Below are positions 3,776 to 22,060 of a stretch of 32,558 bases of DNA, piece after piece. Positions within the stretch are counted from its first letter, which is position 1; each line of letters begins with the position of its first letter. This DNA comes from Paludibacteraceae bacterium (GTDB taxonomy: Bacteria > Bacteroidota > Bacteroidia > Bacteroidales > Paludibacteraceae), in NCBI GenBank assembly GCA_905234025.1, contig CAJOFT010000011.1, forward strand, positions 1-32,558, in the 5' to 3' direction. Under the pieces are notes generated by a model. That model ran no database searches, had not been told where the DNA came from, and worked only from the letters and a program-made list of their open reading frames with translations. The position numbers were made by a program, and so were the translations under genes.

Positions 3776-5221
3776 ATGATACTGAACGAGTTACTGAAAG
3801 TGATTACGCCGCTGAAAGTGGTCGGCTATGCAAATGTCGATATTACTGGCATCCAGTTTGATTCACGCAAAGTGGAAGCGGGAAATATGTTTGTTGCGCA
3901 GGTGGGCACAGCAGTAGATGGACATGCGTTCATTGATGGTTGTGTCGCCAAAGGCGCGGCGGCAGTAGTGCTTTCAAACGCGGAGTTTATGCCTGCTGCG
4001 GCAAACAGCGTGTGCTATGTGCTGGTGGAAAACACCGACAAGGCATTGGGGCTGATGGCATGCAAGTGGTTTGGCGAACCGTCGCACAAGATGAAACTGG
4101 TCGGTGTAACCGGCACGAACGGCAAAACTACCATCGCCACCTTGTTATATAAACTCGCGCGCGCGTTAGGACACAAAGCGGGATTGCTTTCAACGGTCGT
4201 GAATTATGTGGACGAGGAGGCTGTGCCTGCCACGCATACCACACCGGATGCACTGGAACTCAATGGCTTGCTCGCACAAATGGTGGCCGCGGGCTGCGAG
4301 TACGCGTTTATGGAGGTTTCGTCGCACGCGATTGCGCAGGAACGCATTGCCGGCTTGGACTTTGACGGAGCGTTGTTCACCAATCTCACGCGCGACCATA
4401 TTGATTATCATAAGACTTTTGACAACTATCGCGATACGAAAAAACGGCTCTTTGACAGCCTGAAACGCAATGCTTTTGCCGTAACGAATAAGGATGACCG
4501 GAACGGGCTCGTAATGACGCAGAATACGGAGGCTAAGGTCTATTCTTATTCGGTGCGTGCAATGGCGGACTACCGCGCGCAGATTCTCGAAGAAGGCTTC
4601 GACGGCATGTTGCTGAACATGGACGGACAGGAAGTGTTTGTGCCGTTGGTCGGACGATTCAATGTCAGCAATCTGCTCTGTATCTATGGCGCGGCATTGA
4701 ATCTCGGCTTTGAGAAAATGGAAGTGCTGCGTGTTTTGAGTACTTTGAAGCCTGTGAACGGACGCTTTGAGACCATTCGTTCGCCGAAAGGGTGGACGGC
4801 GATTGTCGATTATGCGCACACGCCCGATGCGGTGGATAATGTCATCCAGACGATTAACGAGATTCGCAAGGGCAAACTCATTACGGTGGTTGGCTGCGGC
4901 GGAAACCGTGACAAGGGAAAACGTCCGATGATGGCGCAGATTGCGAAGCATGGTAGTGACCAGTTGATCTTGACATCAGACAATCCGCGTGACGAGGAAC
5001 CTGCTGATATACTGAAAGACATGGCGGCAGGCTTGACGGAGGAAGAACTCCGTTCAACCTTGATTATCGAAGACCGTGAATCGGCAATCAAAACCGCTTG
5101 CACGATAGCCCAATCCGGAGATGTCATTCTCATTGCCGGCAAAGGCCACGAGGATTACCAGATCATCAAAGGCGTGAAGCACCACTTCGACGACCACGAA
5201 ATCGTCCGCAAATGCCTCTAA
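3776..5221 (+). CDS. murE: UDP-MurNAc-tripeptide synthetase MurE, meso-DAP type
   Basis: MurE adds the third amino acid to UDP-MurNAc-L-Ala-D-Glu in the cytoplasm using ATP. The 481-residue protein has the Mur ligase P-loop G113-T-N-G-K117-T-T, the central VSSHA motif and the C-terminal VVGCGGNRDKGKRP region. D402-N-P-R405 is the known signature for meso-diaminopimelate specificity, so this organism should build meso-DAP peptidoglycan. The start lies 4 bp after ftsI. The next gene, mraY, is separated by 172 bp of tandem repeat, unlike the tight spacing upstream. Confidence 0.95.
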   Translation: MILNELLKVITPLKVVGYANVDITGIQFDSRKVEAGNMFVAQVGTAVDGHAFIDGCVAKGAAAVVLSNAEFMPAAANSVCYVLVENTDKALGLMACKWFGEPSHKMKLVGVTGTNGKTTIATLLYKLARALGHKAGLLSTVVNYVDEEAVPATHTTPDALELNGLLAQMVAAGCEYAFMEVSSHAIAQERIAGLDFDGALFTNLTRDHIDYHKTFDNYRDTKKRLFDSLKRNAFAVTNKDDRNGLVMTQNTEAKVYSYSVRAMADYRAQILEEGFDGMLLNMDGQEVFVPLVGRFNVSNLLCIYGAALNLGFEKMEVLRVLSTLKPVNGRFETIRSPKGWTAIVDYAHTPDAVDNVIQTINEIRKGKLITVVGCGGNRDKGKRPMMAQIAKHGSDQLILTSDNPRDEEPADILKDMAAGLTEEELRSTLIIEDRESAIKTACTIAQSGDVILIAGKGHEDYQIIKGVKHHFDDHEIVRKCL

Positions 5222-5340
5222 ATGCGCAAATGAAAAAATGCGCAAATGAAAAAATGAGAAAATGAAAAAATGAGAAAATGTGCAAATGAAAAAATGAGAA
5301 AATGAGAAAATGCGCAAATGCTAAAATGCGAAAATGAAAA
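5221..5340 (+). repeat. Fifteen tandem AATGNNNA octamers
   Basis: Starting with the last base of the murE stop, exactly fifteen 8-bp units fill 5221-5340. Each begins AATG; the variable bases give AATGAAAA, AATGAGAA, AATGCGCA, AATGTGCA, AATGCTAA and AATGCGAA. Because 8 is not a multiple of 3, ATG triplets occur in all frames. A short relative lies at 26869-26908. Confidence 0.9.
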
Positions 5341-5350
5341 AATAAATGCT

Positions 5351-5393
5351 TAAATCGTAAATCGCTAAATCGTAAATCGCTAAATCGTAAATT
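5351..5393 (+). repeat. TAAATCGTAAATCGC 15-mer repeat before mraY
   Basis: Two perfect units (5351-5365, 5366-5380) and a third partial one (5381-5393) end directly at the mraY ATG. The motif family also precedes mraZ (227-260) and murG (22003-22060). Confidence 0.85.
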
Positions 5394-6677: not shown

Positions 6678-6680
6678 ATA

Positions 6681-6712
6681 CCCCCTCCCGACCTCCCCTC
6701 ACGGGAGGAGAA
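6681..6712 (-). repeat. Inverted copy of the GGGGAGAG palindromic repeat
   Basis: Read on the minus strand this reads CTCCTCCCGTGAGGGGAGG followed by TCGGGAGGGGGT, aligning along its whole length with the 33-bp repeats in murD (7107-7139 and others) but in the opposite orientation. On the plus strand its end supplies GGGAGGAG at 6703-6710, a strong Shine-Dalgarno-like sequence 4 bp before the DUF559 start at 6715. Confidence 0.8.
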
Positions 6713-6714
6713 AA

Positions 6715-7092
6715 ATGAGCGAGATACCAAAATATATTACTGCGCGGACGTATGCATACCATATTTTGAGAGATAATATGCACCAACTCCGCAATCATCA
6801 AACGGACGCAGAGTATATGTTATGGCAACGTATCAGAAACAAACAATTAGGTGCAAAATTCCGTCGGCAGCATATTATAGATGATTATATTGTTGATTTT
6901 GTTTGCCTTCAGCACCAACTGATTATTGAGGTAGATGGTAAATATCACGCGGGTGGGGAGCAAAAGGAATTTGATGCTGTCAGAGAGCAAAAGCTCAAGT
7001 CAGAGGGCTATTATATCTTACGTTTTACGAACGAAGAAGTAATAAACAATTTAGACCAAACAATAGAATGTATAAAAAAACATCTAATATGA
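6715..7092 (+). CDS. DUF559-family (Vsr/MTES-like) endonuclease
   Basis: This 125-residue protein is of the DUF559 family, small nucleases with a PD-(D/E)xK-type fold related to the Vsr mismatch endonuclease. Visible marks are the N-terminal QTDAEYMLWQRIRNKQLGAKFRRQH block (residues about 29-53 in total), DYIVDFVC with the conserved Asp, LIIEVDGKYH with Glu and Asp as likely metal ligands, and the C-terminal GYYILRFTNEEV. Its role is unknown. It is not a normal dcw gene, is richer in A+T than its neighbours, and is bracketed by inverted copies of a palindromic repeat (6681-6712 and 7107-7139). The stop overlaps the murD start in ATGA (7089-7092). The upstream repeat provides its GGGAGGAG ribosome-binding site. 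I infer an inserted cassette. Confidence 0.85.
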   Translation: MSEIPKYITARTYAYHILRDNMHQLRNHQTDAEYMLWQRIRNKQLGAKFRRQHIIDDYIVDFVCLQHQLIIEVDGKYHAGGEQKEFDAVREQKLKSEGYYILRFTNEEVINNLDQTIECIKKHLI

Positions 7093-8615
7093 ATACTAAT
7101 TATACACTCTCCCCTAAGGGGAGAGCTGGAGAGGGGTTTCTTGTAGTTCTCGGTGCTGGCGAAAGCGGAACAGGTGCCGCTATTCTCGCCAAAGAAAAAG
7201 GTTTTGAGGTTTTTGTCTCCGACATGGGCGAAATCAAACCTCCGTATCGCGCCTTGCTCGACCAGCACGGCATTGCATGGGAGGATGGCGGACATACGTT
7301 TGACAAACTCAAAGATGCCGATGAAATCATCAAATCGCCCGGCATCCCGAACGATGCTCCTATCATCCGACAAATCCAAAATTACCATTCTTCTCTCTCC
7401 CCTGAGGGGAGAGTCGGAGAGGGGTTTCAGGGAGTTCCCGTCATCTCCGAAATCGAGTTTGCTGCCCGCTACACCGATGCCAAGATGATTTGCATCACCG
7501 GCTCCAACGGCAAAACCACCACGACCTCGCTTATCTATGACATTCTCCGCCGTGCAGGTTTGAATGTCGGTCTGGCAGGCAATATCGGTGCGTCACTGGC
7601 ATTGCAGGTCGCGCACGAACACCATGATTACTATGTCATCGAACTCTCGTCTTTCCAGCTCGACAACATGTACGATTTCCGCGCGAACGTGGCGATTCTG
7701 CTCAATATCACGCCTGACCACCTTGACCGCTATAATTTCGAGTTCCAGAACTACGTCAATGCCAAGTTCCGCATCACGCAGAACCAGACGAAGGACGATG
7801 CGTTCATTTATTGGTCGGAGGATCCGGTCATTGACCGCGAGATACGGAAGATGTCGCTTGGCGCAACGCTTTATCCGTTCGGCAAGTCCGGCAATGCTGC
7901 CTATATCCGTGGCAACGACTTGGTGGTTGAGGCAGGCGAACCGCTTGTCATGCCCTATCAGGAACTGTCGTTGCAGGGCAAGCACAACCAACTGAACTCG
8001 ATGGCGGCATCCATTGCCGCGCAGGTTTTGCACATCAAGAACGATGTCATCCGCGAATCCTTGAAGCAGTTTGCCGGAGTGGAGCACCGCTTGCAGTATG
8101 TGGCAACCGTCAAGGGTGTGCGTTGGATTAACGACAGCAAGGCAACGAACGTCAATTCCTGTTGGTATGCGTTGGAGTCCATGACCACGCCGACGGTGCT
8201 TATTCTCGGCGGCAAGGACAAGGGCAACGATTATTCGGAGATTGACGATTTGGTTCGCGAGAAGTGCCACACGCTCATTTTCATGGGCTTGCACAACGAA
8301 AAACTCCACGAACATTTTGACAAGTTTGCAAAATCTTCTCTCTCCCTTGAGGGGAGAGCCGGAGAGGGGTTTAAATCTTCTCTCTCTCTTGATGAAAGAG
8401 CCGGAGAGAAAATATCCTCCCTCCCTTGTGGGGAGGGACGGGGAGAGGTTACTATTATCGACACGAACAATCTCAACGATGCCGTTCAGGCAGCATATCA
8501 TGCTGCGCATGAAGGTGATACGGTTTTGTTGTCGCCATGTTGTGCTTCGTTTGACTTATTCAAGTCTTACGAGGATCGCGGCAACCAGTTCATGTCCGCC
8601 GTCCGCAAACTCTGA
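7089..8615 (+). CDS. murD: UDP-MurNAc-L-Ala:D-Glu ligase MurD with repeat-encoded insertions
   Basis: MurD adds D-glutamate to UDP-MurNAc-L-Ala. Family marks include VVLGAGESG near the N-terminus, the P-loop G138-S-N-G-K142-T-T, IELSSFQLD, NITPDHLDRY, WINDSKATN, LILGGKDKG and the C-terminal LLSPCCASFDLFKSYEDRGNQF. The protein is 508 residues, about 60 more than usual. The excess is at three places encoded by palindromic repeats: residues 6-17, about 101-114 and 415-454, each reading like LSLEGRAGEGF. The first copy replaces the native N-terminus, since no other start codon lies before VVLGAGESG, so the ATG at 7089 overlapping the DUF559 stop is used. All core motifs are intact and in frame, so the enzyme is probably functional. 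The inserts lie between core blocks, likely in surface loops. Confidence 0.93.
   Translation: MNTNYTLSPKGRAGEGFLVVLGAGESGTGAAILAKEKGFEVFVSDMGEIKPPYRALLDQHGIAWEDGGHTFDKLKDADEIIKSPGIPNDAPIIRQIQNYHSSLSPEGRVGEGFQGVPVISEIEFAARYTDAKMICITGSNGKTTTTSLIYDILRRAGLNVGLAGNIGASLALQVAHEHHDYYVIELSSFQLDNMYDFRANVAILLNITPDHLDRYNFEFQNYVNAKFRITQNQTKDDAFIYWSEDPVIDREIRKMSLGATLYPFGKSGNAAYIRGNDLVVEAGEPLVMPYQELSLQGKHNQLNSMAASIAAQVLHIKNDVIRESLKQFAGVEHRLQYVATVKGVRWINDSKATNVNSCWYALESMTTPTVLILGGKDKGNDYSEIDDLVREKCHTLIFMGLHNEKLHEHFDKFAKSSLSLEGRAGEGFKSSLSLDERAGEKISSLPCGEGRGEVTIIDTNNLNDAVQAAYHAAHEGDTVLLSPCCASFDLFKSYEDRGNQFMSAVRKL
7107..7139 (+). repeat. Palindromic repeat copy 1, in frame in murD
   Basis: CTCTCCCC-TAA-GGGGAGAG is a perfect 8-bp-arm palindrome (7107-7125), followed by a tail CTGGAGAGGGGTTT (7126-7139). 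It encodes LSPKGRAGEGF, becoming residues 7-17 of MurD. Confidence 0.9.
7395..7427 (+). repeat. Palindromic repeat copy 2, in frame in murD
   Basis: CTCTCCCC-TGA-GGGGAGAG (7395-7413) plus TCGGAGAGGGGTTT (7414-7427). It is read in the same frame as copy 1 as LSPEGRVGEGF, between the N-terminal domain and the PVISEIEF block of MurD. Confidence 0.9.
8331..8450 (+). repeat. Palindromic repeat copies 3-5, two as an exact 42-bp tandem in murD
   Basis: Copy 3 (core 8340-8372) and the decayed copy 4 (8382-8414) each begin with AAATCTTCT and form two adjacent 42-bp units, 8331-8372 and 8373-8414. They encode KSSLSLEGRAGEGF and KSSLSLDERAGEKI. Copy 5 (8416-8450) is a variant palindrome, CCCTCCC-TTGTG-GGGAGGG, encoding SSLPCGEGRGEV. 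All keep the murD frame. Confidence 0.88.
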
Positions 8616-8650
8616 AGTACACCCAACACGTTAAATCTTACACGCTCACC

Positions 8651-8756
8651 CCCCTAAACGTTAAACGCTACACGCTAAACGCTAAACGTTAAACGTTAAA
8701 CCCTAAACGTTAAACCCTAAACGTTAAACCCTAAACGTTAAACCCTAAACGGTTAA
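8651..8756 (+). repeat. TAAACNN heptad array with four 14-mers
   Basis: Heptads TAAACGT, TAAACGC and TAAACCC run from about 8654. Four perfect 14-mers ACGTTAAACCCTAA fill 8693-8748. It lies between the murD stop and the accessory island, where there is no coding sequence until 8943. Confidence 0.85.
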
Positions 8757-8780
8757 CCACCCCCCATCCAACTATACGTA

Positions 8781-9530: not shown

Positions 9531-9788
9531 ATGAAAGATAATCAGACTACACAGAAAAGTGGTCAGACAAGTACGTTGACAGATACGTTGACAAGTACGT
9601 TGACGGGTACGCGGAAAAGTATTGTTGATATCATTCGGGAAAACCCTAAAATTACCATCCCTCAAATAGCAACCCGGTTGGGCAAAAATCCGCGAGGAAT
9701 AGACAAACACATGCAAAAACTCCGCGAACTTGGTATCATCCGCCGTGTTGGGGGAGATTTTGGCGGTCATTGGGAAATTGTGTCGTAG
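9531..9788 (+). CDS. Small winged-helix DNA-binding protein, possibly the detached tail of an AlbA_2 regulator
   Basis: The 85-residue product has a low-complexity N-terminus made of TLTDTLTSTLTG, encoded by 12-bp repeats at about 9576-9611, then a winged helix-turn-helix: SIVDIIRENPKITIPQIAT, LGKNPRGIDKHMQKLRELGIIRRVGG and the wing ending GGHWEIV. Such domains occur at the C-terminus of Schlafen-AlbA_2 ATP-binding regulators such as the one at 17583-18950. It may therefore be a remnant or a free-standing repressor. A strong promoter with a perfect operator-like dyad lies directly upstream, favouring a working autoregulated repressor. The ATG at 9531 sits about 17 bp after the expected transcription start, so a longer reading back to 9498 is unlikely. 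Confidence 0.7.
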   Translation: MKDNQTTQKSGQTSTLTDTLTSTLTGTRKSIVDIIRENPKITIPQIATRLGKNPRGIDKHMQKLRELGIIRRVGGDFGGHWEIVS

Positions 9789-9790
9789 TA

Positions 9791-9816
9791 AATATACCCC
9801 CGACATACATAGGGAA
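9791..9816 (-). repeat. Inverted relative of the 43-bp repeat flanking rhuM-fic
   Basis: ATATACCCC followed after four bases by ATACATAGG resembles the minus-strand reading of the repeat at 20688-20730 (ATATACCCCTCCATATATAGG), allowing one gap. It lies between the winged-helix gene and the GIY-YIG gene. The similarity is short. Confidence 0.4.
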
Positions 9817-9868
9817 TCCCCCTAACACTGCCATTAACACAGCAATAAAAAAGAAAATAAATAAAACT

Positions 9869-10696
9869 ATGGCAAAGATAGTACATACCATCTTATTTGG
9901 AGAGGATATAGATAGTTCTCGGCAAGTATATATCGACAATTGCGTTTGCCAATTGTTTCTGATTCGTCATGACGATAATGCCGTACTCGCACAAATCGCA
10001 GATGCTATTGATAAACCTGCTGTGTATGTTCTCCTGAATAGAGAGACAAGGAAGGCGTATGTTGGTCAGACCGATTCGTTCAAGAAGCGTTTGCAGCAGC
10101 ATTGGAACAAGACATTCTGGACAGAAGCCATGTGTTTCCAAGCCAATGACAATTCTTTGCATCTGACGAGTATTCATTATTTGGAAGCTATCGCCTATGA
10201 CTTAGCCAAGAAAGTCGGTAATTATGATCTCTCTGAGAACACCCAAGTGCCAAAGAAACCGGCAACGACTCCGCAACATCGCATTCCGGCAGAGCAGTTT
10301 TTTGAGTATGTACAGTTCTTGACGCAGTTTGTCGGCTGTGATATCTTCAGTTCAAAAAAGGAACAGGCTAAGCCGGAGCAACACATCTTTTATTGCAAGA
10401 GAGCTGGGAGCGATGCTAAGGGGTATCTGCGCGAGAATGAAGAATTTGTTGTATTAGCCGGAAGCGAACTGCGTAGTGGAGAGTGCGATTCACTCAAACC
10501 GCAATCCATCGAGAAACGCAATGCTTTTATTAAAGTTAATTGCACGCAAGCAAAAGGCAAGATTATCCTTAAAGCAGATTACACTTTCGCCTCACCATCT
10601 GCGGCCGCAGCAATGGTTGTAGGTGGCAGTTCCAACGGCTGGACAAGATGGAAGGATGCAGAAGGAAAAACGTTGAGCGAGGTTTACAGAAAATAG
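9869..10696 (+). CDS. GIY-YIG nuclease-domain protein with C-terminal DUF4357
   Basis: In this 275-residue protein the middle domain has the GIY-YIG signature AVYVLLN (residues about 51-57) and AYVGQT (63-68), with R74 and E106 (HYLEAIAYDLA) in the positions of the catalytic Arg and Glu, so a nuclease is plausible. The C-terminus, about 195-272, fits DUF4357: GYLRENEEFVVLAGS, IILKADYTFASPSAAAAMVVGGSSNGWTRWKD and TLSEVY. These proteins are often found near restriction-modification genes, as here just upstream of mod. Substrate is unknown. I chose the ATG at 9869; the earlier in-frame start at 9770 would overlap the preceding gene and read the repeat at 9791-9816. Confidence 0.82.
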   Translation: MAKIVHTILFGEDIDSSRQVYIDNCVCQLFLIRHDDNAVLAQIADAIDKPAVYVLLNRETRKAYVGQTDSFKKRLQQHWNKTFWTEAMCFQANDNSLHLTSIHYLEAIAYDLAKKVGNYDLSENTQVPKKPATTPQHRIPAEQFFEYVQFLTQFVGCDIFSSKKEQAKPEQHIFYCKRAGSDAKGYLRENEEFVVLAGSELRSGECDSLKPQSIEKRNAFIKVNCTQAKGKIILKADYTFASPSAAAAMVVGGSSNGWTRWKDAEGKTLSEVYRK

Positions 10697-10699
10697 ACA

Positions 10700-10717
10700 T
10701 TGTAAATTGATTTACAA
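10700..10717. promoter_or_regulatory. Perfect 18-bp dyad before mod
   Basis: TTGTAAAT-TG-ATTTACAA is a perfect inverted repeat with a 2-bp spacer, 25 bp before the mod ATG. It resembles the dyad at 9465-9484: same 2-bp spacer, and half-sites agreeing at 6 of 8 positions (nTGnAAAT). It is a likely operator. No TAnnTTTG box is visible nearby. Confidence 0.6.
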
Positions 10718-10742
10718 ATCTAAAAAAAGCGAGACAAGATAT

Positions 10743-12476
10743 ATGGCAAAACAGTCTAAATATGATAGTTTATCAAGAGAGCAATTGATTGATAAAATAC
10801 TAAAATTAGAAAAGGAGAAGTATGGCCTTGTCTGGGAAGACAAGGAAGAAGATGTCGCAAAACGTTGCGAGGCAGAACTTCCATTGCTGAAAGAAGATAA
10901 GACGCGGGAGATTGTCAAAGACAAATCATTACCGTATAATATCATTATTGAGGGTGACAATTATCACTCTTTATATGCTTTGAGTTTTTCGCACAAAAAG
11001 AGTATTGATGTTATTTATATTGATCCCCCGTATAATACGGGTAAGAAATACGAATGGAAATATAATGATAGTTGGGTAGATGAGAATGATCGGTATAGAC
11101 ATAGTAAGTGGCTATCGTTTATAAGCAAAAGATTGAGGCTAGCAAGAAATTTATTGACATATGATGGAATCATTTTTATATCAATAAATGAGAATGAGTT
11201 AGCACAATTAAAGTTATTATGTGATTCAATTTTTGGAGAAAAGAATTATATTGCAACATTACCAAGAATCACTAAGAAAGCAGGAAAAACTACTAATGTA
11301 GTAGCAGATAATAATGATTTTGTTATAGCCTATTGTAAAAATAAAGGAAGAACATTTAATAAACTTGAATTGGTAGATAAGCAATATAAACATGAAGATG
11401 AGTATGTGGAAAGTCGTGGGAAATATAAGCTAAGTCAAACTTTAGATTATAGTTCCATACAATATTCAGTCTCTTTAGATTATGAGATAAAATTAGAAGG
11501 TGAAATATTTAGACCAGGAGGTGTGTCATACGATGACATGATTATTCGGCAGCAACGTAACCCTTCTAGTGATTATTGTTGGAGATGGTCTAAAGAATTA
11601 TATGATTTTGGATTAGCAAATGGTTTTATCGTTGTTAAAAGAACTAAGAAAGGAAAAAGAATATATACTAAAACATATCAAAATGCAACTATTAATAAAG
11701 ACGAAGATGGAACATATTTTATAGAATATTCAGAAAGAGCGAAAAATGCCACGACATTAGATTTGACTGATAATGTGTTTTCAAATGATAATGCAAAAAA
11801 AGAGTTAAATAAATTATTTGGAGAAAAGGTATTTGAGTATACAAAACCTACATCTTTAATACAAAGATTAATGTTTTGGGCTAGTAAGAAAGATTCTGTT
11901 GTATTAGATTTTTTTGCAGGGAGTGGCACCACAGGACATGCTATATTAAAATTAAACAAAACCGATGGAGGTAATCGTAGATTTATACTATGCACGAATA
12001 ATGAAAATAATATTTGTACTGAAGTAACATATCCGAGAATAAAAAAAGTAATCGAAGGCTATGCAGATGTATCGGGAATACCTGCAAATCTTAAATACTA
12101 TACGCAAACATTCGTTCCTGTTGTTGTGTCTGATAACGACAAACGGGAATTAGTTAACAGCAGCACAGATATACTATGTGTCGCTGAAGATTGCTATGAA
12201 CTAATCCGAGAAAGAAATAATCAAAGTGATTTTTCTGTATTCAAAAGCGCAAATAAACAAATGGCTATCATATATGATGAGGATTACATATATGATTGTA
12301 TTGATTATTTAAATGAGAACAGGTCTGAATTGGAGACAATCATATATGTGTTCAGTTATGATCACACCTATGATGCCGAAGACTTTGCAGGACTAAATAT
12401 TCAGTTCGCGGTAAAGCCTATACCCGAAGCGATAATAAACGTATATCGTAAAATCTCTAAAATGAAGAAAAAATGA
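10743..12476 (+). CDS. mod: Type III-like DNA adenine methyltransferase (Mod)
   Basis: This 577-residue N6-adenine methyltransferase is of the beta class: DPPY (residues 94-97, motif IV, in VIYIDPPYNTG) precedes the SAM-binding D389-F-F-A-G-S-G-T-T (motif I). The variable region between, about 150-330, should hold target recognition. The C-terminal 150 residues are typical of Mod subunits paired with Res. Mod methylates its site and, in Type III systems, provides specificity to the Res complex. It overlaps res in ATGA (12473-12476). The gene is clearly richer in A+T than the flanking cell-wall genes. I use the ATG at 10743; the TTG at 10707 lies in the dyad and is unlikely. Confidence 0.92.
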   Translation: MAKQSKYDSLSREQLIDKILKLEKEKYGLVWEDKEEDVAKRCEAELPLLKEDKTREIVKDKSLPYNIIIEGDNYHSLYALSFSHKKSIDVIYIDPPYNTGKKYEWKYNDSWVDENDRYRHSKWLSFISKRLRLARNLLTYDGIIFISINENELAQLKLLCDSIFGEKNYIATLPRITKKAGKTTNVVADNNDFVIAYCKNKGRTFNKLELVDKQYKHEDEYVESRGKYKLSQTLDYSSIQYSVSLDYEIKLEGEIFRPGGVSYDDMIIRQQRNPSSDYCWRWSKELYDFGLANGFIVVKRTKKGKRIYTKTYQNATINKDEDGTYFIEYSERAKNATTLDLTDNVFSNDNAKKELNKLFGEKVFEYTKPTSLIQRLMFWASKKDSVVLDFFAGSGTTGHAILKLNKTDGGNRRFILCTNNENNICTEVTYPRIKKVIEGYADVSGIPANLKYYTQTFVPVVVSDNDKRELVNSSTDILCVAEDCYELIRERNNQSDFSVFKSANKQMAIIYDEDYIYDCIDYLNENRSELETIIYVFSYDHTYDAEDFAGLNIQFAVKPIPEAIINVYRKISKMKKK

Positions 12477-15322
12477 AAGAGATTCAATACCAGAAAAAAT
12501 ATATCAACAAACTGGCAAACACAGCCAAAGAGTTATTGAAAGACCCATATCGTGATAGTGGTACCATTATTTTCAAAGCTCCTACGGGTTCCGGAAAAAC
12601 ATATATGGTGGCACAAGCGTTAACGCAAATGGTAAAAGATAATCCCGAAATATCTTTTGCCTTTATCTGGATCTCCGTAAACAATTTGCATGAACAAAGC
12701 TTAAATAGTTTGTCTTTATATTTTGAAGATGAGCGATTGCTGGAATGTATTACCAATGCAGACCTAAACAATAATGCAATTGAGCAAAACCAGATAATGT
12801 TCATTAACTGGGAGAGTATAAACAAGGAAAATTCACTTTTCCGTGTCGATAATGAACAAAATTGGAATTTGCAGACAGTTGTAGAAAATACAAGGGATAA
12901 CGGTTGTACCCTCGTTTTGTTGATAGACGAGAGCCATAGAAATGCAAATACCGATAAATCGAAAGAGTTAATTGAAATAATTGCGCCAAGACTTATTATT
13001 GAAGTTACAGCCACCCCGAAGAATTCATCCGGCACCTTAATTGATATACCTTTGAGAGAAGTAATCGACGAAGGCATGATAAAAAAAGAGGTGCGTATCA
13101 ATGATGAAAAGCCATCTTCGATTAAAAATAATGAAGACATATTAAGAATGGCTTTGCGCAAACGTACCCAATTACGAAGTGCATACACGAGCCTTAATAA
13201 AGATATTAATCCGCTATTACTTATTCAAATTCCAAACAAAAGGGCAAATGATGTAAGCAATCCTGAAGATGAAATTATTGCTTTCTTGAGCGAACAAGGA
13301 CTGACCATACAAAATGGGAAAGTTGCTTTATGGTTATCCGAAGATCACAGGAATAAAGAAGAAGTTGAATTAAATAGTAGTGCTGTTGAAGTTCTAATAT
13401 TTAAGGAAGCTATTGCTTTAGGTTGGGATTGTCCAAGAGCAAGCATTTTATTCTTGCAACGTGAATGGAATAATGAACGATATGAGTTCAATATTCAGAC
13501 GTTGGGACGAATTATGCGAATGCCGGAACAGATGCATTATGAAGAAAAACCGGAACTCAATTATGGGTATGTATATACAGCATCCGATAATTTTACAATT
13601 GTTGAAGATTTGGCAAAGGATTATGTTAGTCAGCAAAGATTAACAATTGACCATGATATATATAGTTCTCGTCCCCACATATTTAGCGAACATATTCGTC
13701 GTAAAAGAGAACTAACCAGATTATCCGGCGATTTTAAGAAAGTATTTAATGAGGCAGCGCTAAATTACAGACTGAAGGATAAAATCAATTGTGATGTAAA
13801 TCAAATAGTTAAGACCATAAAATTAGAGGCTGTCGTCCAGGAAATAGATAAAGGAGGAGAGCAAGAAGTACAATTTAAAGATAAAAAACAAATTAACAGA
13901 AGTAAAGCAGAGATCCAGAGTTTATATGATGGATTTATTCGTAAAATGGTGAATCCGTATGAAATTGCTCGTTCTCAAAATATCCTTAAAACGGCTATTC
14001 GCAGCTGGTTTAAATCTGAACTTTCTATTTCAGACGATGATCTTATTCAAATGATTGTAATGAGTTTTAGCCAGAATAATAATGCTCATTTCAAACAGGT
14101 AATAGACGACGCAAAAGAGTTATATAAAAATCTGCCGACAAAGACTGACGAAATAACAACAAATGAGAATTGGACCATTCCTAATTCTGTTGATATTTTC
14201 TCTGATTGTGAAGAAATAAGACCAAGCGCTAAGTCTATATTAAAACAAGAGGATGCAAAGTGTTTTATCGCAAAAAAAGACAAAAATGGTAAATCGGAAT
14301 TATCCAAACCGGAAAAAGAGTTCATTGCTCAAATGGAAGGTTCCGATGACTACCTACAATGGTGGTACAAAAACGGGAAAGGAGAAAGCAAGTATTTTTG
14401 TATAGCTTATCAAAAGGAAGACGGGTTCTATTATGGTTTTTATCCTGACTTTATTCTGAAGACAAAAAAGGAAACAATAATTGTAGAGATAAAAGACGAT
14501 AAAGATTTTAAAGCCGATAATTATTATAAATTAAGAGCGGGCAGGAAATATTTAGAGCGATTGAATGGAGAGGAGAAAGTTCGTTTCTATATTCTTTCTC
14601 CAAATTGTTATTATGAATTTTTCCGGAAATTAAACGATATGGACTTAGATAGCTTTGAGTCCAAATTTGAACATAATTTATTGACATTTATCCAAAGCCA
14701 ACAACTTCAGATTCAAGAAAAGATTAAAAAAGCCGAGGCTTTAACAAAGGCAGAAGAAGAATACAAAGAGCTTTTCTCTGAGTATGAAAAATCCCTATCA
14801 GAGTTAGGAGACGAGAAGTTTAGAAGAGAATTACTGGAGTTGGAATTGGATGAAGCAAAAGCTATTATAGAACAATACAAAACAAATATTGATATTCTAT
14901 CGATTGTTTCTAAGCCCAAAGAAATGACTATTGAAAAAATGGTCATTAGCACCCCATTCAATATATGTATTATAGGTGAAGTTTCGGACCTGTCACAAAT
15001 ACGACATGAGTTGAATTCATATTTTGAGAAAATAGGAATTGCTCCAACAGATTGGGATGTGGATTTTATCAACAATACAAAATTGGAGAATGCCAATATA
15101 TACAAATCTCTGCAGAAGGGACAAACTAAATATAACATCATTGTCGTGGGACAAATATACCATCATTCGGGAAAAGGAAACCAAAAGGCTAATATTATTT
15201 CAGAATTAAAAAATGAGAAATATATACCATTTATTGTTGGTTGTTCTCCTAAAGAGGTGTTGACACCGGATAATTTAATAAAGAAATTACATGAGTATTT
15301 GACAGAATATTACTCCATATAG
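12473..15322 (+). CDS. res: Type III-like restriction subunit (Res) with C-terminal extension
   Basis: This 949-residue DEAD-like helicase-nuclease should cleave unmodified DNA together with Mod. Motifs in order: APTGSGKT (about 36-43, Walker A), D152-E-S-H155 (motif II), TATP (about 180, motif III), LGWDCPRA and QTLGRIMRMP (motifs V and VI), then a PD-(D/E)xK nuclease domain with KPEKEF, YPDFIL (D659) and VEIKDD (E672, K674). After the nuclease comes a long charged coiled coil (about 740-810) and a final domain of about 135 residues (NICIIGEVSDL, YNIIVVGQIYHHSGKGN, YIPFIVGCSPKEVL) that I do not recognise and that is not part of classical Res. The start overlaps the mod stop by 4 bp, so the two are co-translated. 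Confidence 0.9.
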   Translation: MKEIQYQKKYINKLANTAKELLKDPYRDSGTIIFKAPTGSGKTYMVAQALTQMVKDNPEISFAFIWISVNNLHEQSLNSLSLYFEDERLLECITNADLNNNAIEQNQIMFINWESINKENSLFRVDNEQNWNLQTVVENTRDNGCTLVLLIDESHRNANTDKSKELIEIIAPRLIIEVTATPKNSSGTLIDIPLREVIDEGMIKKEVRINDEKPSSIKNNEDILRMALRKRTQLRSAYTSLNKDINPLLLIQIPNKRANDVSNPEDEIIAFLSEQGLTIQNGKVALWLSEDHRNKEEVELNSSAVEVLIFKEAIALGWDCPRASILFLQREWNNERYEFNIQTLGRIMRMPEQMHYEEKPELNYGYVYTASDNFTIVEDLAKDYVSQQRLTIDHDIYSSRPHIFSEHIRRKRELTRLSGDFKKVFNEAALNYRLKDKINCDVNQIVKTIKLEAVVQEIDKGGEQEVQFKDKKQINRSKAEIQSLYDGFIRKMVNPYEIARSQNILKTAIRSWFKSELSISDDDLIQMIVMSFSQNNNAHFKQVIDDAKELYKNLPTKTDEITTNENWTIPNSVDIFSDCEEIRPSAKSILKQEDAKCFIAKKDKNGKSELSKPEKEFIAQMEGSDDYLQWWYKNGKGESKYFCIAYQKEDGFYYGFYPDFILKTKKETIIVEIKDDKDFKADNYYKLRAGRKYLERLNGEEKVRFYILSPNCYYEFFRKLNDMDLDSFESKFEHNLLTFIQSQQLQIQEKIKKAEALTKAEEEYKELFSEYEKSLSELGDEKFRRELLELELDEAKAIIEQYKTNIDILSIVSKPKEMTIEKMVISTPFNICIIGEVSDLSQIRHELNSYFEKIGIAPTDWDVDFINNTKLENANIYKSLQKGQTKYNIIVVGQIYHHSGKGNQKANIISELKNEKYIPFIVGCSPKEVLTPDNLIKKLHEYLTEYYSI

Positions 15323-15414
15323 CATCGTGCCAGACCGAAATCCGCAAAGCGCAAGATATTATTGACGGCTGTGCCGCACGCAAGAAAGCAATACTGGATA
15401 AATATTTGAAATAA
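15322..15414 (+). pseudogene. Remnant of a C-terminal coding segment, possibly HsdS
   Basis: Directly after the res stop an open frame without a start codon reads ASCQTEIRKAQDIIDGC, then AARKKAILDKYLK and a stop. The helical ending resembles the C-terminus of Type I specificity (HsdS) or fused methylase subunits, from memory of the family. It suggests that an older restriction gene was lost here. From 15415 to 15522 I see nothing further coding. Confidence 0.4.
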
Positions 15415-15522
15415 ACAAAATTAGATTGTAAAAATGGCAAATTACAAAATAAGATATCGTTAGTAAAAAAGTGGAGTGTGTTTTGATAAAAGAATCTATT
15501 TCGCAATTTGATTATTAATTGT

Positions 15523-17499
15523 ATGCAAGACAGAGTTTGTTATTTCTCAAGGGATGATATGTCTTTAGGGTATAATCTTGAAATGGCGGAAAAGCGTATT
15601 CAAGAACTGTCTAAAGGTGAGATGCCTACTGATATAGAAGGCATCATTGAACTATGGCATATCAAACAGATGTATGATAATGATTGCAGATTACTGAAAT
15701 GGGATGATAATGAATATCAAACACTGAAAGACCAAACACATGAGTATAACAATATTATAGCGAGATTTTTTAATGGTCTTAACCCTAAAACAATAAAAAA
15801 CAATTTCGAACATTTAGAATGGGGTTATAAAAAAACATTCTGGGAAATAATAGATGCATATAAGTTATATAAACTGCTTGAACCGGAGACCTTACGTGAA
15901 ATACTAACAAAAAACATCAATTATGTACGTGAGGTTTTAGAGTGCCAAGGTTTAGTTGAAAAGTTTAAAGGCATTATTCGTGAAATCCTTATCAGCAACG
16001 TAAATTGTGCTCATATTCTTTTAGATAAATATGTTGCTAAGCAAGACTTGCATAGAGAAAAGAAAATCTATTTGCCATCCAATCTTACTTTAGAAGATAA
16101 AGAGCAAATGCTTATTAATTATTTACAAAGTGCAGAGCCTAATATAAACTATGTACGGTTAATTTCTCAAATAAAAAACTGTAGTCAAATAAAAATATCA
16201 CCAAAAACAAGACTTATGGCTGAAAAATTAGCTCAGAAACTTAATGATGAATTGATGAGCAGTCCAACAGCCATAAAAACGAATTGGTCTGTGGGGATTC
16301 GGTTTGTGGATGATAATAAAACAGAGCCAATAGAGTTAAGTATTGATGAAAAAGGTGTTCTTACATATACTTACAGTATCCCATACATAAAAAAATGTGA
16401 TAGCGTAAGGAGAGTGACTAATTGTATCTCACTTTTCGGCTGGTTGAATAATCACCGTATGTTAAATCTAATTAATAAGAGAACCGAAGTGGACACTATG
16501 GAAACCTTATTGATTGATAAAGGAAAGGACGCTTATCCAACATATATGGTATTTGACCAAAAGAATAGATTGTCATTACATCAGTTATACGCATATAGAA
16601 ATACCCTTACCACGATTAATGGTTCTTATGAAGGTGAGTTAAAGCAGTTCTATGAACATTATCTCAAAGATACATATGGTTATCCGGGATTAGTCATAAA
16701 CCTCCCAAAATCCGAAGATTCAGCACTGAATAAATGCCTTATAATATGTCCTGTTTTAGATGCAATAGTAAAACAATTTAACGCATTTGCGGAAGAAGGC
16801 GAAATAGATAAGGAACTTATTAGGTTGTCTCTACCGTTGAAGGTTGAAGAAGGGAAAAGCCTTTTAGCAAATAAATACTATGAAATAGCCGAAGATAATG
16901 ATGATATAAAGAGTGTCCTGTATGGTTTATTTGGGGCGGGTAATTCATTACTTGCTTATGTAGAACCCTTCAAAAATAAAAATTATCATTCATTAATCGA
17001 TTTGCTTACAAATGAAACAAAGGTACTATACTCAAATTATCATGCATATCAAAAGCCTCATCTTGATTTTCTAATAAAACAAGGAGTGATCGGTGTTAGT
17101 GCCGACGGATATGTTTATGTCGCAAATCCATCAATGGTCAAAGTTTTAAAATCTTTATGGGAGTATGAAGCATGCTCTTATTGGCATTATGGGGAAGCAG
17201 AGCGAAAAACAATTGATGATATGTGCGCAAATGGCTGGCTTGTGAAAGATAATCATTTGTTAAGTAAGCCGGAACGTGACTATTTCAGTTATTACCTTGA
17301 TAATATGAAATTTACCAATGGAAAGGCATATAGAAATCATTATGCACATGGAGATTCTCTTTCAGCAGATGATGTAAATGCACATTCTTTAGCATACATA
17401 ACTTTCTTAGAGTTACTTACAATATTGTTACTAAAGATTGAGGACGATTTACAGTTATCAAGAAACACAGGACTCTTGCCCACAAAGCAAAACAACTGA
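15523..17499 (+). CDS. Large protein with C-terminal HEPN-type RNase motif
   Basis: I do not recognise the family of this 658-residue, soluble, mostly helical protein. Near its end the sequence YRNHYAHG contains R604-N-H-Y-A-H609, the RNxxxH pattern of HEPN RNases, followed by a hydrophobic helix (YITFLELLTILLLKIEDDL) as in HEPN four-helix bundles. HEPN domains act in abortive infection and toxin systems, often beside restriction genes. The first 500 residues may be a sensor. The gene is A+T-rich like mod and res, and lies 200 bp after res in the same direction without a clear promoter of its own. The ATG at 15523 is preferred to the TTG five codons earlier. A defence role is inferred. Confidence 0.7.
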   Translation: MQDRVCYFSRDDMSLGYNLEMAEKRIQELSKGEMPTDIEGIIELWHIKQMYDNDCRLLKWDDNEYQTLKDQTHEYNNIIARFFNGLNPKTIKNNFEHLEWGYKKTFWEIIDAYKLYKLLEPETLREILTKNINYVREVLECQGLVEKFKGIIREILISNVNCAHILLDKYVAKQDLHREKKIYLPSNLTLEDKEQMLINYLQSAEPNINYVRLISQIKNCSQIKISPKTRLMAEKLAQKLNDELMSSPTAIKTNWSVGIRFVDDNKTEPIELSIDEKGVLTYTYSIPYIKKCDSVRRVTNCISLFGWLNNHRMLNLINKRTEVDTMETLLIDKGKDAYPTYMVFDQKNRLSLHQLYAYRNTLTTINGSYEGELKQFYEHYLKDTYGYPGLVINLPKSEDSALNKCLIICPVLDAIVKQFNAFAEEGEIDKELIRLSLPLKVEEGKSLLANKYYEIAEDNDDIKSVLYGLFGAGNSLLAYVEPFKNKNYHSLIDLLTNETKVLYSNYHAYQKPHLDFLIKQGVIGVSADGYVYVANPSMVKVLKSLWEYEACSYWHYGEAERKTIDDMCANGWLVKDNHLLSKPERDYFSYYLDNMKFTNGKAYRNHYAHGDSLSADDVNAHSLAYITFLELLTILLLKIEDDLQLSRNTGLLPTKQNN

Positions 17500-17538
17500 T
17501 TAAACAGCAACAACCCAAAGCACCCAAACCACCAAACC

Positions 17539-17594
17539 GGATTTCCTAATCTGGAGCGAGTTAATGAATAAAAAGGAAGAATATGGAAACACAA
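17539..17594 (+). repeat. Leader shared with rhuM-fic, copy 1
   Basis: This leader and the first four codons (METQ) of the AlbA_2 gene match 19635-19688 before and within rhuM-fic: GATTT, a GCGAG block, ATGnATAAAAAGGAAnAATATGG and AAACACAA. The two unrelated genes thus share a start region of about 50 bp. Confidence 0.7.
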
Positions 17595-18950
17595 AATATA
17601 GAGTACAAAGTAAAGTGGAAAGACGAGTTTCTAAAAGAGATTTGCGCATTTGCCAATTCCCAAGGCGGTACGCTTTATATCGGCATTGACGATAACGGAC
17701 ACATTGAGGGCGTAACTGATGCGAAGAACTTATTAGAAAACCTACCCAACAAAGTGCGGGATACAATGGGTATCTTGGTCAATGTCAAGCACGAACGCAG
17801 AGAAGACAAAGATATTGTCTCCGTTTCTGTCGAGCCAAGTAGCGTTCCTATCTCGCTCAATTCTCAGTATTATATTCGTTCAGGTTCAACAAAACAGGAA
17901 TTGCGCGGTACTGCTCTGCAAGAGTTTATACTCAAAAAGATGGGCAAGCAATGGGACGATGTGTATCACGATACAGCAACTATAGATTGCATTGATCCCA
18001 AGGCTATTGCATATTTCATCAAACGAAGTATTGCTGCCAAACGCCTTACGCCGGAAACAACTGGCGATACGCCGCAAGAAGTATTGGAGAACTTGCGGCT
18101 TATCTCTGATGATGGCAAACTCAAATATGCTGCAATTCTGCTTTTCGCCAAAGATCCTTTGCGCTATTTTACAGGAGTACAATTCAAAATAGGTCGTTTC
18201 GGAGAGGATGAAGCGGATTTGCGCTCACAAGACATAGTGGAGGGTAACATTCTTCAAATGGCAGACCGCGTTATTGAGGTTCTTAAGAACAAATACCTCC
18301 ATTCATACATTCGGTATGAGGGTATGCAACGCATTGAGGAATTGGAGATACCTGAAGATGCTTTCCGTGAAATATTGTACAATGCGATAGTTCACAAACA
18401 ATATACAGGCGCACCTATACAAATGCGTATCTTTGAAGACCATATCGAGTTGTGGAACGAAGGGAATCTGCCGGAGAACTACACAGTGGAAACACTCATG
18501 CACAAACATGCGTCCAAACCTCGGAACTTGAATATCGCTAGTGTGTTCTACAAAGCAGGTTTTATTGAGGCATGGGGGCGCGGTTACAAGAAGATTCAGG
18601 ACGGTTTCAATGAAGCCAAACTGCCGATGCCTGTTTTTGCAACAGCGTTCGGAGGTGTGGAAGTGAATATAACAAGACCAAGAGCCATTGAAAATGGCGG
18701 TCAAAATGGCGGTCAAAATGCAGCGCAATTAACTGAAAGACAGCAGTTAATACTCTCTTCAATAGAGAAACATGGCGGTCATGTTGGCGGACAAAATGGC
18801 GGTCAAAAAGCGGGGTTGAATAATGAAGATTTGGCAAAATTGTTGGGTATAAGCTTACGAACCATTGAAAGAGAAGTTGTTGTTTTGAAGAAAAAGAATC
18901 TCATCAAGCGTATTGGCTATGGCTTAAAAGGCTATTGGGCAATTATTTGA
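17583..18950 (+). CDS. Schlafen AlbA_2 domain ATP-binding transcriptional regulator
   Basis: This 455-residue protein begins with an AlbA_2 (Schlafen AAA_4) domain: E7 and FANSQGGTLYIGIDDNG (residues about 23-39) are its hallmark. A GHKL-like ATP-binding region follows (FREILYNAIVHKQY, IELWNEGNLP, FYKAGFIEAWGRGYKKI). Next is a Gly-Gly-Gln repeat linker (NGGQNGGQN and GGHVGGQNGGQK, about 370-410) encoded by AATGGCGGTCAA-type repeats, and a C-terminal winged helix (NEDLAKLLGISLRTIEREVVVLKKKNLI in pieces). Such proteins are annotated as ATP-dependent DNA helicases or regulators and are frequent in defence islands; the exact function is unclear. It starts 83 bp after the HEPN gene, with a leader shared with the rhuM-fic gene downstream. 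Confidence 0.88.
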   Translation: METQNIEYKVKWKDEFLKEICAFANSQGGTLYIGIDDNGHIEGVTDAKNLLENLPNKVRDTMGILVNVKHERREDKDIVSVSVEPSSVPISLNSQYYIRSGSTKQELRGTALQEFILKKMGKQWDDVYHDTATIDCIDPKAIAYFIKRSIAAKRLTPETTGDTPQEVLENLRLISDDGKLKYAAILLFAKDPLRYFTGVQFKIGRFGEDEADLRSQDIVEGNILQMADRVIEVLKNKYLHSYIRYEGMQRIEELEIPEDAFREILYNAIVHKQYTGAPIQMRIFEDHIELWNEGNLPENYTVETLMHKHASKPRNLNIASVFYKAGFIEAWGRGYKKIQDGFNEAKLPMPVFATAFGGVEVNITRPRAIENGGQNGGQNAAQLTERQQLILSSIEKHGGHVGGQNGGQKAGLNNEDLAKLLGISLRTIEREVVVLKKKNLIKRIGYGLKGYWAII

Positions 18951-18988
18951 CATGAGATCGGTTTCTCGCCATACAACAACAGAAAACT

Positions 18989-19090
18989 ATGCCCGATGTA
19001 CTAACCCCACAACAACGCCATCGCTGCATGTCGCATATACGCAATAAGGCTACGAAGCCGGAAATGAATACAAAACTGACAACCATATAG
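18989..19090 (+). pseudogene. Truncated Vsr endonuclease (N-terminal 26 residues)
   Basis: An ATG at 18989 opens MPDVLTPQQRHRCMSHIRNK and continues ATKPEM, the conserved Vsr N-terminus (very short patch mismatch repair, usually beside cytosine methylases). Homology then stops and NTKLTTI and a stop codon follow. The break coincides with ATGAATACAAAA, which recurs at 19171-19182, and with the repeat beginning at 19086. The catalytic core is missing, so this is a dead fragment. Confidence 0.7.
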
Positions 19091-19108
19091 CCTGGTCCTT
19101 TTTTGAAA
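19086..19108 (+). repeat. TATAGCCTGGTCC repeat, copy 1
   Basis: The 23-bp element beginning TATAGCCTGGTCC and ending TTTTTTGAAA is identical at 19439-19461. A diverged copy (CAGCTTGGTC then a T run and GAAA) lies at 19152-19170. The copies bracket the small gene at 19171-19434. Confidence 0.75.
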
Positions 19109-19170
19109 CATCAAAGCCGTACATACTACACACATAAATATCAATGCACAGCTTGGTCTTTTTTTGAAAT

Positions 19171-19434
19171 ATGAATACAAAAATTAAAACAGAAGAACGG
19201 ATTTGCCGCTTGGTTGCATGTCTTGGGAAAGAGACAAAACCGCGTCGTGAACTGATGGCCGAGTTGGGACTTCGGGAGAGCAGCCGTAGAAATTTCAGGG
19301 TTAATTATATCAATCCTGCGATTGAACAGGGATATGTGCGAATGACTATTCCGGGGGCACCCAGTTGTCCTGAACAAGCTATGTCCTTACTCAAAACGGA
19401 CTTGATTTCCTTGCAGAATTATCACAAGACGTAA
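19171..19434 (+). CDS. Small winged-helix protein or regulator fragment
   Basis: This 87-residue reading frame resembles the C-terminal helix-turn-helix tail of ATP-binding or Fic-type regulators: EERICRLVACLGKETKPRREL, MAELGLRESSRRNFRVNY and INPAIEQGYVRMTIPGAP. The long N-terminal part such a protein would normally have is absent. It begins at ATGAATACAAAA, the same 12 bases at which the Vsr fragment breaks, and is enclosed by copies of the TATAGCCTGGTCC element. It may be a shuffled remnant rather than a working gene. Confidence 0.5.
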   Translation: MNTKIKTEERICRLVACLGKETKPRRELMAELGLRESSRRNFRVNYINPAIEQGYVRMTIPGAPSCPEQAMSLLKTDLISLQNYHKT

Positions 19435-19438
19435 AAGT

Positions 19439-19461
19439 ATAGCCTGGTCCTTTTTTGAAAG
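19439..19461 (+). repeat. TATAGCCTGGTCC repeat, copy 2
   Basis: This copy is identical over 23 bp to 19086-19108. It starts 4 bp after the stop of the small winged-helix frame. Confidence 0.75.
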
Positions 19462-19514
19462 GGAGAAAAGATAGAAAACGTTAAAAAAAGAAAAAAACTT
19501 GCATTTCAAGTGAT

Positions 19515-19557
19515 AGATTTGCCCTCTTTTATGCCTTATATATGGAGGGGTATATAA
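19515..19557 (+). repeat. 43-bp direct repeat, left copy
   Basis: It begins AGATTTGCCCTCTTTT and ends TATGGAGGGGTATATAA. It matches 20688-20730 at 40 of 43 positions, and the pair flanks the rhuM-fic gene. Inside, CCCTC and GAGGG can pair across a TA-rich centre. Confidence 0.85.
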
Positions 19558-19634
19558 AAGGACATGAAGTGTCCGAACAAAGAGCAACAAACGCATTTTG
19601 CATAAAATAAAAAAGCACTCAAAACACTACACTC

Positions 19635-19688
19635 GATTTCATGCCTAAGGCGAGGTGATGGATAAAAAGGAATAATATGGAAACACAA
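19635..19688 (+). repeat. Leader shared with the AlbA_2 gene, copy 2
   Basis: It corresponds to 17539-17594. Here the small frame inside the leader is ATG-GAT-AAA-AAG-GAA-TAA, a five-codon minicistron whose stop lies just before the rhuM-fic ATG at 19677. In the other copy the equivalent frame stays open past the start. Confidence 0.65.
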
Positions 19689-20681
19689 CCACATATATCG
19701 CAATCAAGTATAGAAATCTATACTGCACCGGACAATAGTATCCAACTGCAAGTCAAGTTGGATCAAGATACAGTATGGCTGACGCAAAAGCAGTTAGCTG
19801 AATTATTTGGCGTTAAAAAAGCAGCTATTTCCAAGCATATATCCAATATATTTGCTACTGGGGAACTTGAACCGACCATGACAGTTTCCAAAATGGAAAC
19901 AGTCGTAAACCGTGGTTTCCGAGGTGTTGTAACGGATTGGGTTGAATACTACAATCTGGACATGATTTTGTCTATTGGCTACCGCGTCAATTCACGTAGC
20001 GCTATTTCCTTCCGTCAATGGGCAAATCGTGTATTGAAAGATTTCCTTATCAAAGGTTACGCAGTACGTACAAGTCTGCAGCTCAAGCAATATGAGGAGC
20101 TGAAGCAGTTGGTCGGTGTGTTGCAACAGACCATGCAAACAGAAGCATTAACCACCAACGAGGCACGAGACTTGGTCAAGGTGGTGACGGATTATACATA
20201 CGCGCTCGACACTTTGGACAATTACGACTATCAGCGTCTTGCAATAAGCGATACTGAAGGTGAAGAGCGTTTCCATGCGACATACGAGAATGCTATGGAG
20301 GCTATTCGCTCACTCAAAGAAAAATTTGGTGAGAGTTGGTTGTTCGGCAACGAGAAAGACGATTCGTTCAAGAGTAGTATAGGGCAGATATACCAGACTT
20401 TCGGCGGTCAGGAACTTTATCCGAGCGTGGAAGAAAAGGCTGCGATGTTGCTGTATCTTGTGACGAAAAATCATTCTTTTTCGGACGGCAACAAACGCAT
20501 TGCCGCTACGCTTTTCCTTTGGTTTATGGACAGAAACGGCATTCTTTACACGCCTGAAGGACACAAACGCATAGCGGATAATACACTTGTTGCACTCACG
20601 CTGATGATTGCCGAGAGCCGGACAGAAGAAAAGGATGTCATGGTAAAGGTGGTCGTTAATCTGATTAACAAAAAGAATTAA
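19677..20681 (+). CDS. RhuM-family protein fused to a Fic/Doc domain
   Basis: In this 334-residue protein the N-terminal RhuM region has a helix-turn-helix-like segment (WLTQKQLAELFGVKKAAISKHI, as 34-55) and continues through FRGVVTDWVEYYNLDMILSIGYRV and the SFRQWA block. The C-terminal half is a Fic/Doc fold with the full motif H266-S-F-S-D270-G-N-K-R274, the Doc-like form. Fic proteins add AMP and Doc adds phosphate to targets; here the target is unknown, but toxin activity is plausible because the catalytic His is present. No obvious antitoxin gene adjoins it. The gene is a separate module between 43-bp direct repeats (19515-19557, 20688-20730), directly before ftsW. Confidence 0.9.
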   Translation: METQPHISQSSIEIYTAPDNSIQLQVKLDQDTVWLTQKQLAELFGVKKAAISKHISNIFATGELEPTMTVSKMETVVNRGFRGVVTDWVEYYNLDMILSIGYRVNSRSAISFRQWANRVLKDFLIKGYAVRTSLQLKQYEELKQLVGVLQQTMQTEALTTNEARDLVKVVTDYTYALDTLDNYDYQRLAISDTEGEERFHATYENAMEAIRSLKEKFGESWLFGNEKDDSFKSSIGQIYQTFGGQELYPSVEEKAAMLLYLVTKNHSFSDGNKRIAATLFLWFMDRNGILYTPEGHKRIADNTLVALTLMIAESRTEEKDVMVKVVVNLINKKN

Positions 20682-21996: not shown

Positions 21997-22002
21997 AATC
22001 AT

Positions 22003-22060
22003 TAAATCGTAAATGACTAAATCATAAATGACTAAATCGTAAATGACTAAATCGTAAATA
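22003..22060 (+). repeat. TAAATCGTAAATGAC 15-mer repeat before murG
   Basis: Units occupy 22003-22017, 22018-22032 (one change), 22033-22047 and a partial 22048-22060, ending 2 bp before the murG ATG. It is the same family as 5351-5393, with GAC in place of CGC. Confidence 0.88.

Follow-up and report, generated by a model that had tools for sequence, protein, structure and literature searches.

Palindromic inserts in murD beside a DUF559 nuclease gene: a probable homing-like element at the mraY/murD junction of a Paludibacteraceae bacterium

Rickettsia palindromic elements (RPEs) are palindromic repeats found in frame within unrelated protein genes (PMC10969869). They are about 150 bp long, encode a conserved peptide and carry a CGTC end (PMC10969869, PMC3733652). 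In REPtrons of the REP/RAYT type, short palindromes flank one mobility-type gene and are dispersed around it (PMC3733652, PMC3116915). Nucleases with a domain of the DUF559 type are known from yet another literature. One such gene has been placed in the EDxHD family of homing endonucleases (PMC9403480), to which I-Bth0305I belongs, while the DUF559 protein VsrA is responsible for an SOS response in Caulobacter cells that have no cytosine methyltransferase (PMC12907096). A link between DUF559 and palindromes was not found in the literature searched, which was a single collection and hence is no proof of novelty.

The locus to be compared with these systems lies in the cell-wall gene cluster of a Paludibacteraceae bacterium. 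In what follows, the window is the whole stretch of DNA that was analysed (32,558 nucleotides). Its relevant features are these:

6680..7139, forward strand: proposed mobile cassette (inverted palindrome, DUF559 gene, palindrome) of about 460 bp at the mraY/murD junction, an arrangement that recurs in relatives
6680..6709, reverse strand: left end of the cassette, an inverted and diverged unit (8 mismatches to the consensus in 30 positions; hairpin z -2.7)
6715..7092, forward strand: DUF559 nuclease gene (Vsr/EDxHD-like), 125 codons; Pfam PF04480, E = 8.6e-36
7089..8615, forward strand: murD, 508 aa with its inserts; Pfam Mur ligase domains; placed in an alignment of 54 genus MurDs
7107..7136, forward strand: palindromic unit at murD site 1, the right end of the cassette, read as LSPKGRAGEGF (DNA hairpin z -2.6)
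7395..7424, forward strand: solo palindromic unit at murD site 2, read as LSPEGRVGEGF, inside a 45-bp insert
8340..8369, forward strand: solo palindromic unit at murD site 3, read as LSLEGRAGEGF
8382..8411, forward strand: decayed unit at murD site 3 (8 mismatches)
8419..8448, forward strand: diverged unit at murD site 3 (7 mismatches), read as SSLPCGEGRGEV

Like RPEs, the murD unit and its relatives sit in frame within protein genes, which reveals a similar coding tolerance. Unlike RPEs, the unit measures only some 30-45 bp, is read in three phases and two orientations and is linked to a nuclease gene; inspection of the unit sequences found no CGTC tag at their ends. Identity with RPEs therefore fails on length, on tag and on constancy of the peptide. 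As in REPtrons, palindromes flank, and are scattered around, a single mobility-type gene, but here the enzyme is a DUF559 nuclease and not a Y1 tyrosine transposase, the copies lie mostly in genes, and the GTAG tag of REPs is absent from the units inspected. With the EDxHD homing endonuclease I-Bth0305I, the locus shares a related catalytic domain and the occupancy of one site in scattered hosts. It differs in that the DUF559 gene is bounded by palindromes, with no intron or intein recognised, and in that the protein consists of one small domain, with no extended DNA-binding region that could be recognised. Finally, VsrA has the same domain (PMC12907096), but it was interpreted in that work as a mismatch-repair nuclease and not as part of a mobile element.

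The units in murD are well defined. Those at 7107-7136, 7395-7424 and 8340-8369 each depart by one mismatch from the 30-nt consensus CTCTCCCCTnAGGGGAGAGCCGGAGAGGGG, and the 28-nt core of the unit has 3 matches in the window against 0.00 expected (100 shuffles). At site 3, the block 8331-8450 is made of one good unit and then the two diverged ones, the peptide LSLEGRAGEGF being followed by KSSLSLDERAGEKISSLPCGEGRGEV. A sequence-only reading of the window had already described palindromic repeats in frame at three sites of murD, adding about 66 residues to an enzyme that keeps its catalytic motifs. This description stands: the three near-identical units and the two diverged ones are all open in the frame of murD, the inserts do add about 66 residues, and the protein still matches the N-terminal, middle and C-terminal Pfam domains. 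In the organism's own genome (1.94 Mb, 79% complete), DNA pattern searches allowing at most 3 mismatches, the method used for all copy counts given here, found the unit three times, every copy being in murD; the three insert peptides used as a protein query had given no match in this genome, and DNA patterns were used instead.

Alignment with relatives, the check that the same reading had proposed, places the inserted segments in a broader context. Most of the 54 aligned genus MurDs lack them, many having reading frames of about 428-460 codons. Site 1 is at the N-terminus, site 2 follows SPGIP...QLQ and precedes ISEIEF, and site 3 separates HNEKLHEHF from the IDT(N/D)NL motif; compared with the empty sites of three relatives (G198, G202 and G158), the site-2 insert is 45 bp long. 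At sites 1 and 3, some genus MurDs have short extensions that are unrelated to these inserts. A MurD carrying the same segments without the DNA palindrome, the case named as refuting, was not seen among them. Absence from nearly all orthologues thus supports, at the level of the alignment, the view that the segments are DNA insertions and not ancestral sequence. The murD of one relative (G193, locus L073) has an unrelated repeat, read as REPRTQNREP, at sites 2 and 3, which suggests that these loops may tolerate insertions in general.

As for the three-dimensional position of the inserts, the AlphaFold model of MurD is of low confidence at residues 1-11, 105-113 and 416-454, which cover the inserts and fall between predicted helices and strands, and the solved MurDs have gaps at site 2. 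The model is moderate as a whole (mean pLDDT 63, alignment of 9 sequences), and for this reason the placement in loops rests on low local confidence together with the gaps against solved MurDs.

What had escaped attention is the neighbourhood. The palindromes had been taken as inserts of murD only; five units are indeed there, but an inverted copy lies outside, at 6680-6709, and adjoins the overlooked DUF559 cassette. Because the DUF559 gene is flanked on its left by this inverted unit and on its right by the site-1 unit, the latter is the right end of a nuclease cassette. The two ends of the cassette are alike only in part, and the stop codon of the DUF559 gene overlaps the start of murD (ATGA). 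Target-site duplications were not seen at murD site 2, nor at a filled purL site discussed below. Short A/T-rich tandem repeats (of the AAATGnGn, AAATCGT and TAAACGTTAAACCC types) occupy several gene junctions of the cell-wall cluster (5204-5392, 8638-8763, 219-259 and 21984-22059 in the window). In addition, a run of defence-type genes extends over 9770-20681, between murD and ftsW, with PADLOC matches to PDC-S14, a type III methyltransferase and restriction enzyme, PDC-S56 and PDC-S23. As these genes separate murD from ftsW, the cell-division and cell-wall cluster is interrupted by a defence island.

The DUF559 protein scores 122.6 bits against PF04480, with a curated cut-off of 20.6, and in the profile search the 125-aa protein matches nuclease families only; the inserted stretches are open frames. 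Among solved structures, its profile finds 3hrl, endonuclease-like (E=2.9e-30), and 3r3p, a mobile intron protein (E=3e-7). The structural model (mean pLDDT 84.5) matches the fold of 3hrl, that of the homing endonuclease I-Bth0305I and, weakly, that of Vsr, with Foldseek TM scores of 0.71-0.72 by target length against the EDxHD homing endonuclease fold. Residues E33, D61, H78 and D87 are invariant in A1 and would be the EDxHD residues. The gene is under purifying selection, with dN/dS of about 0.06-0.17 where dS could be computed.

The same junction is occupied elsewhere in the genus. An intact DUF559 gene stands between mraY and murD in our genome (G000) and in four others (G179, G167, G175 and G185); G164 has kept both palindromes around a 20-residue DUF559 remnant, and G166 a DUF559-like tail with the right palindrome. 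The seven genomes are scattered over the MurD tree (54 sequences, insert columns removed). On this tree, where G166 was not labelled as positive, the six DUF559-positive rows need six changes (shuffled mean 5.8), at least three of which are forced by well-supported branches. The DUF559 proteins of the junction form one group, close to an intact copy that G164 carries at ftsW/murG. This latter genome (loci L119 and L203) thus combines an intact cassette at ftsW/murG with a mere remnant at mraY/murD, and looks as if its cassette had moved locally. Read from the tree, the junction pattern would reflect repeated acquisition at the same site or many losses, homing being the simpler reading; the occupancy of one site could instead be the outcome of vertical descent with many losses.

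Copies of the unit that stand alone complete the picture. Of 29 units sampled elsewhere in the genus, 20 are inside open frames of at least 200 codons, with at least 40 codons on each side; their hosts include LigA, TypA, an RluA-family synthase, MurI and methylmalonyl-CoA mutase. The proposal that the element spreads through coding sequence as RPEs do thus agrees with what is seen in relatives, but not with the organism's own genome, where at the mismatch limit given above the unit is confined to murD. The companion idea of a fixed 33-bp unit, able to spread as a multiple of three, has to be abandoned: the site-2 insert has 45 bp, and the units of relatives occur in every reading phase and in either orientation. 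It follows that the element is tied neither to a 33-bp length nor to one frame, and that the unit of inheritance is the DNA and not the peptide. An intrinsic openness of the unit to translation was considered as the cause of its coding tolerance and rejected: with 4.49 open frames of 6, it is only slightly above the background of 4.04, so that the tolerance is probably due mostly to selection.

Putting these observations together, we give a probability of about two-thirds to the following reading: the insert at murD site 1 is the right terminal repeat of a homing-like, non-splicing DUF559 element, whose palindromic ends have also given the solo copies at sites 2 and 3. This element would consist of an inverted palindrome, a DUF559 nuclease gene and a palindrome (about 6680-7139), within the cell-wall gene cluster, and the overlap of stop and start codons would allow murD to be made despite the cassette. 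The DUF559 protein, a relative of homing endonucleases of the Vsr/EDxHD type, would cut the empty site or close by, and recombinational repair would then carry a copy of the entire cassette to this junction in other strains, a form of homing that would need neither intron nor intein. Occasional cutting or repair at the palindromic ends would seed solo repeats, chiefly in adjacent genes in the present genome and over a wider range in some relatives, and selection would retain only those insertions that are in frame and in tolerant loops. The layout of the locus, its translation in frame, the lack of the inserts in relatives, the scattered filling of one junction, the link between DUF559 and palindromes and the purifying selection on the gene are all observed; the three capacities given to DUF559, cutting, homing and mobilisation of solo copies, are inferred.

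The last of these capacities is where another explanation deserves most thought. The palindromes might have come first, as independent REP-like repeats moved by some other enzyme, with DUF559 cassettes invading them or being captured by them without moving the solo copies. Some genomes have solo units and no detected DUF559 (G197 with 7 units, G151 with 4, and G160), though some of these are incomplete, and G179 has as many as 24 units for a single DUF559. Against this speaks the proximity of the two partners. In the six DUF559 genomes, 7 of 42 units that are not cassette ends lie within about 4 kb of DUF559, when 0.17 would be expected (kinship ignored); two of these are in frame in murE of G179, and another, in the opposite orientation, is in the murE region of G167. 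In favour of the homing-like reading, among the genomes compared the deeper murD palindromes are confined to those with DUF559 or its remnant at the junction: sites 2 or 3 are filled in 4 of 6 DUF559-positive genomes and in 0 of 48 others (Fisher p=5e-5, kinship ignored). In our genome, all units are beside the cassette, and across phyla DUF559 is framed by two copies inverted relative to each other. We thus hold this sequence of events to be unlikely. The mobilisation of palindromes by a Y1 transposase, as in classical REP/RAYT systems, appears very improbable: the size and hairpin form of the unit do resemble those of REPs (PMC3733652), but no Y1 transposase match was found in the organism's genome (79% complete), and of 8 genomes 3 had matches, all weak and partial, while the copies are largely intragenic and devoid of the GTAG tag.

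Might the inserted peptide itself be what is selected, as a protein motif or a functional loop of MurD? The copies in this MurD share one phase and have similar peptides, as this would predict. However, in other phases, orientations and genes the same DNA unit yields the unrelated SPLRGEPERG, LPCGESRRG and PLSGSPLKGE, a different repeat fills the same MurD sites in G193, and most relatives do without the segments, so that we give hardly any credence to this explanation. Nor do we see much room for regulatory RNA hairpins, terminators or an assembly artefact, the chances of which seem minimal. The units can form hairpins, but they match no Rfam family at gathering score, and terminator-like sites are not in excess (3, against 2.6 in shuffles). 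As to the artefact, we rejected it because separately assembled relatives have the same structure at the junction.

The homing-like reading can be confronted with DUF559 loci from a wider range of genomes. DUF559 is found in 66 of 150 genomes of the family and, among the matches listed there, 57 of 112 fall in open frames of at least 400 codons. A further 80 loci came from a scan of named genomes. The resulting set for Bacteroidota comprises 109 loci; as some are present in both sources, this is not a count of independent genes. Within this set, DUF559 lies in the frame of a host gene in 64 of 109 cases, the frame remaining open for at least 60 codons on either side, and inverted repeats between the flanks (score of at least 15) occur at 55 of 109 loci, against 5 of 109 controls, where each locus was represented by the highest-scoring of its control windows, eight at most (kinship ignored). 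Curated models match the host genes in separate stretches around DUF559 for RecG, ValS, IleS, LeuS, PurL, UvrA, PrmC and MetH, and palindrome-derived peptides are usually present on both sides of the embedded domain. Many of the sites adjoin conserved motifs: in ValS, LeuS and one IleS this is TTRPETI or a counterpart of it, in RecG it is TATPIPRTLA. In ValS (L016), LeuS (L024) and IleS (L021), DUF559 stands directly before TTRPETI or its counterpart, and its positions in the three tRNA synthetases are apparently homologous. The phylogeny of DUF559 tracks the insertion site (15 changes, against 34.7 when shuffled). In purL, a difference of exactly 139 codons separates the filled from the empty site. 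At the place where the right end of the element, GGGGAGGCT, starts in G076 (L018), the empty purL of G092 (L222) also has GGGGAGGCT; this shared sequence at the right junction may be microhomology used at insertion, or an excision scar. Inverted palindromes on both sides of DUF559 are also clear in Deinococcus, Pseudanabaena and Sphingomonas plasmid records, but less clear or absent in Sinorhizobium, Azospirillum and Shinella.

Extending the argument to DUF559 nucleases in general calls for restraint, and we would put it forward as a possibility that falls a little short of probable: they may form an undescribed, widespread mobile class, in which cassettes bounded by palindromes would enter conserved positions in essential genes by homing, in frame and with no splicing. 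If their ends also moved alone, DUF559 would be a candidate mobiliser of RPE-like coding palindromes. The CGTC REPs, a group that has been connected with the RPEs of Rickettsia, seem to have no dedicated transposase (PMC3733652). The locus described here ties coding palindromes to a specific nuclease family that can be purified, and this makes their origin directly testable. Members of DUF559 reside in frame within host proteins by the dozen, among them RecG, UvrA and tRNA synthetases, and the sites of insertion constitute a natural record of the enzyme loops that tolerate insertion. A domain so far discussed mainly as a Vsr-like nuclease gains in this way a second possible role, and the locus suggests that a homing-like nuclease may invade essential genes without a splicing partner.
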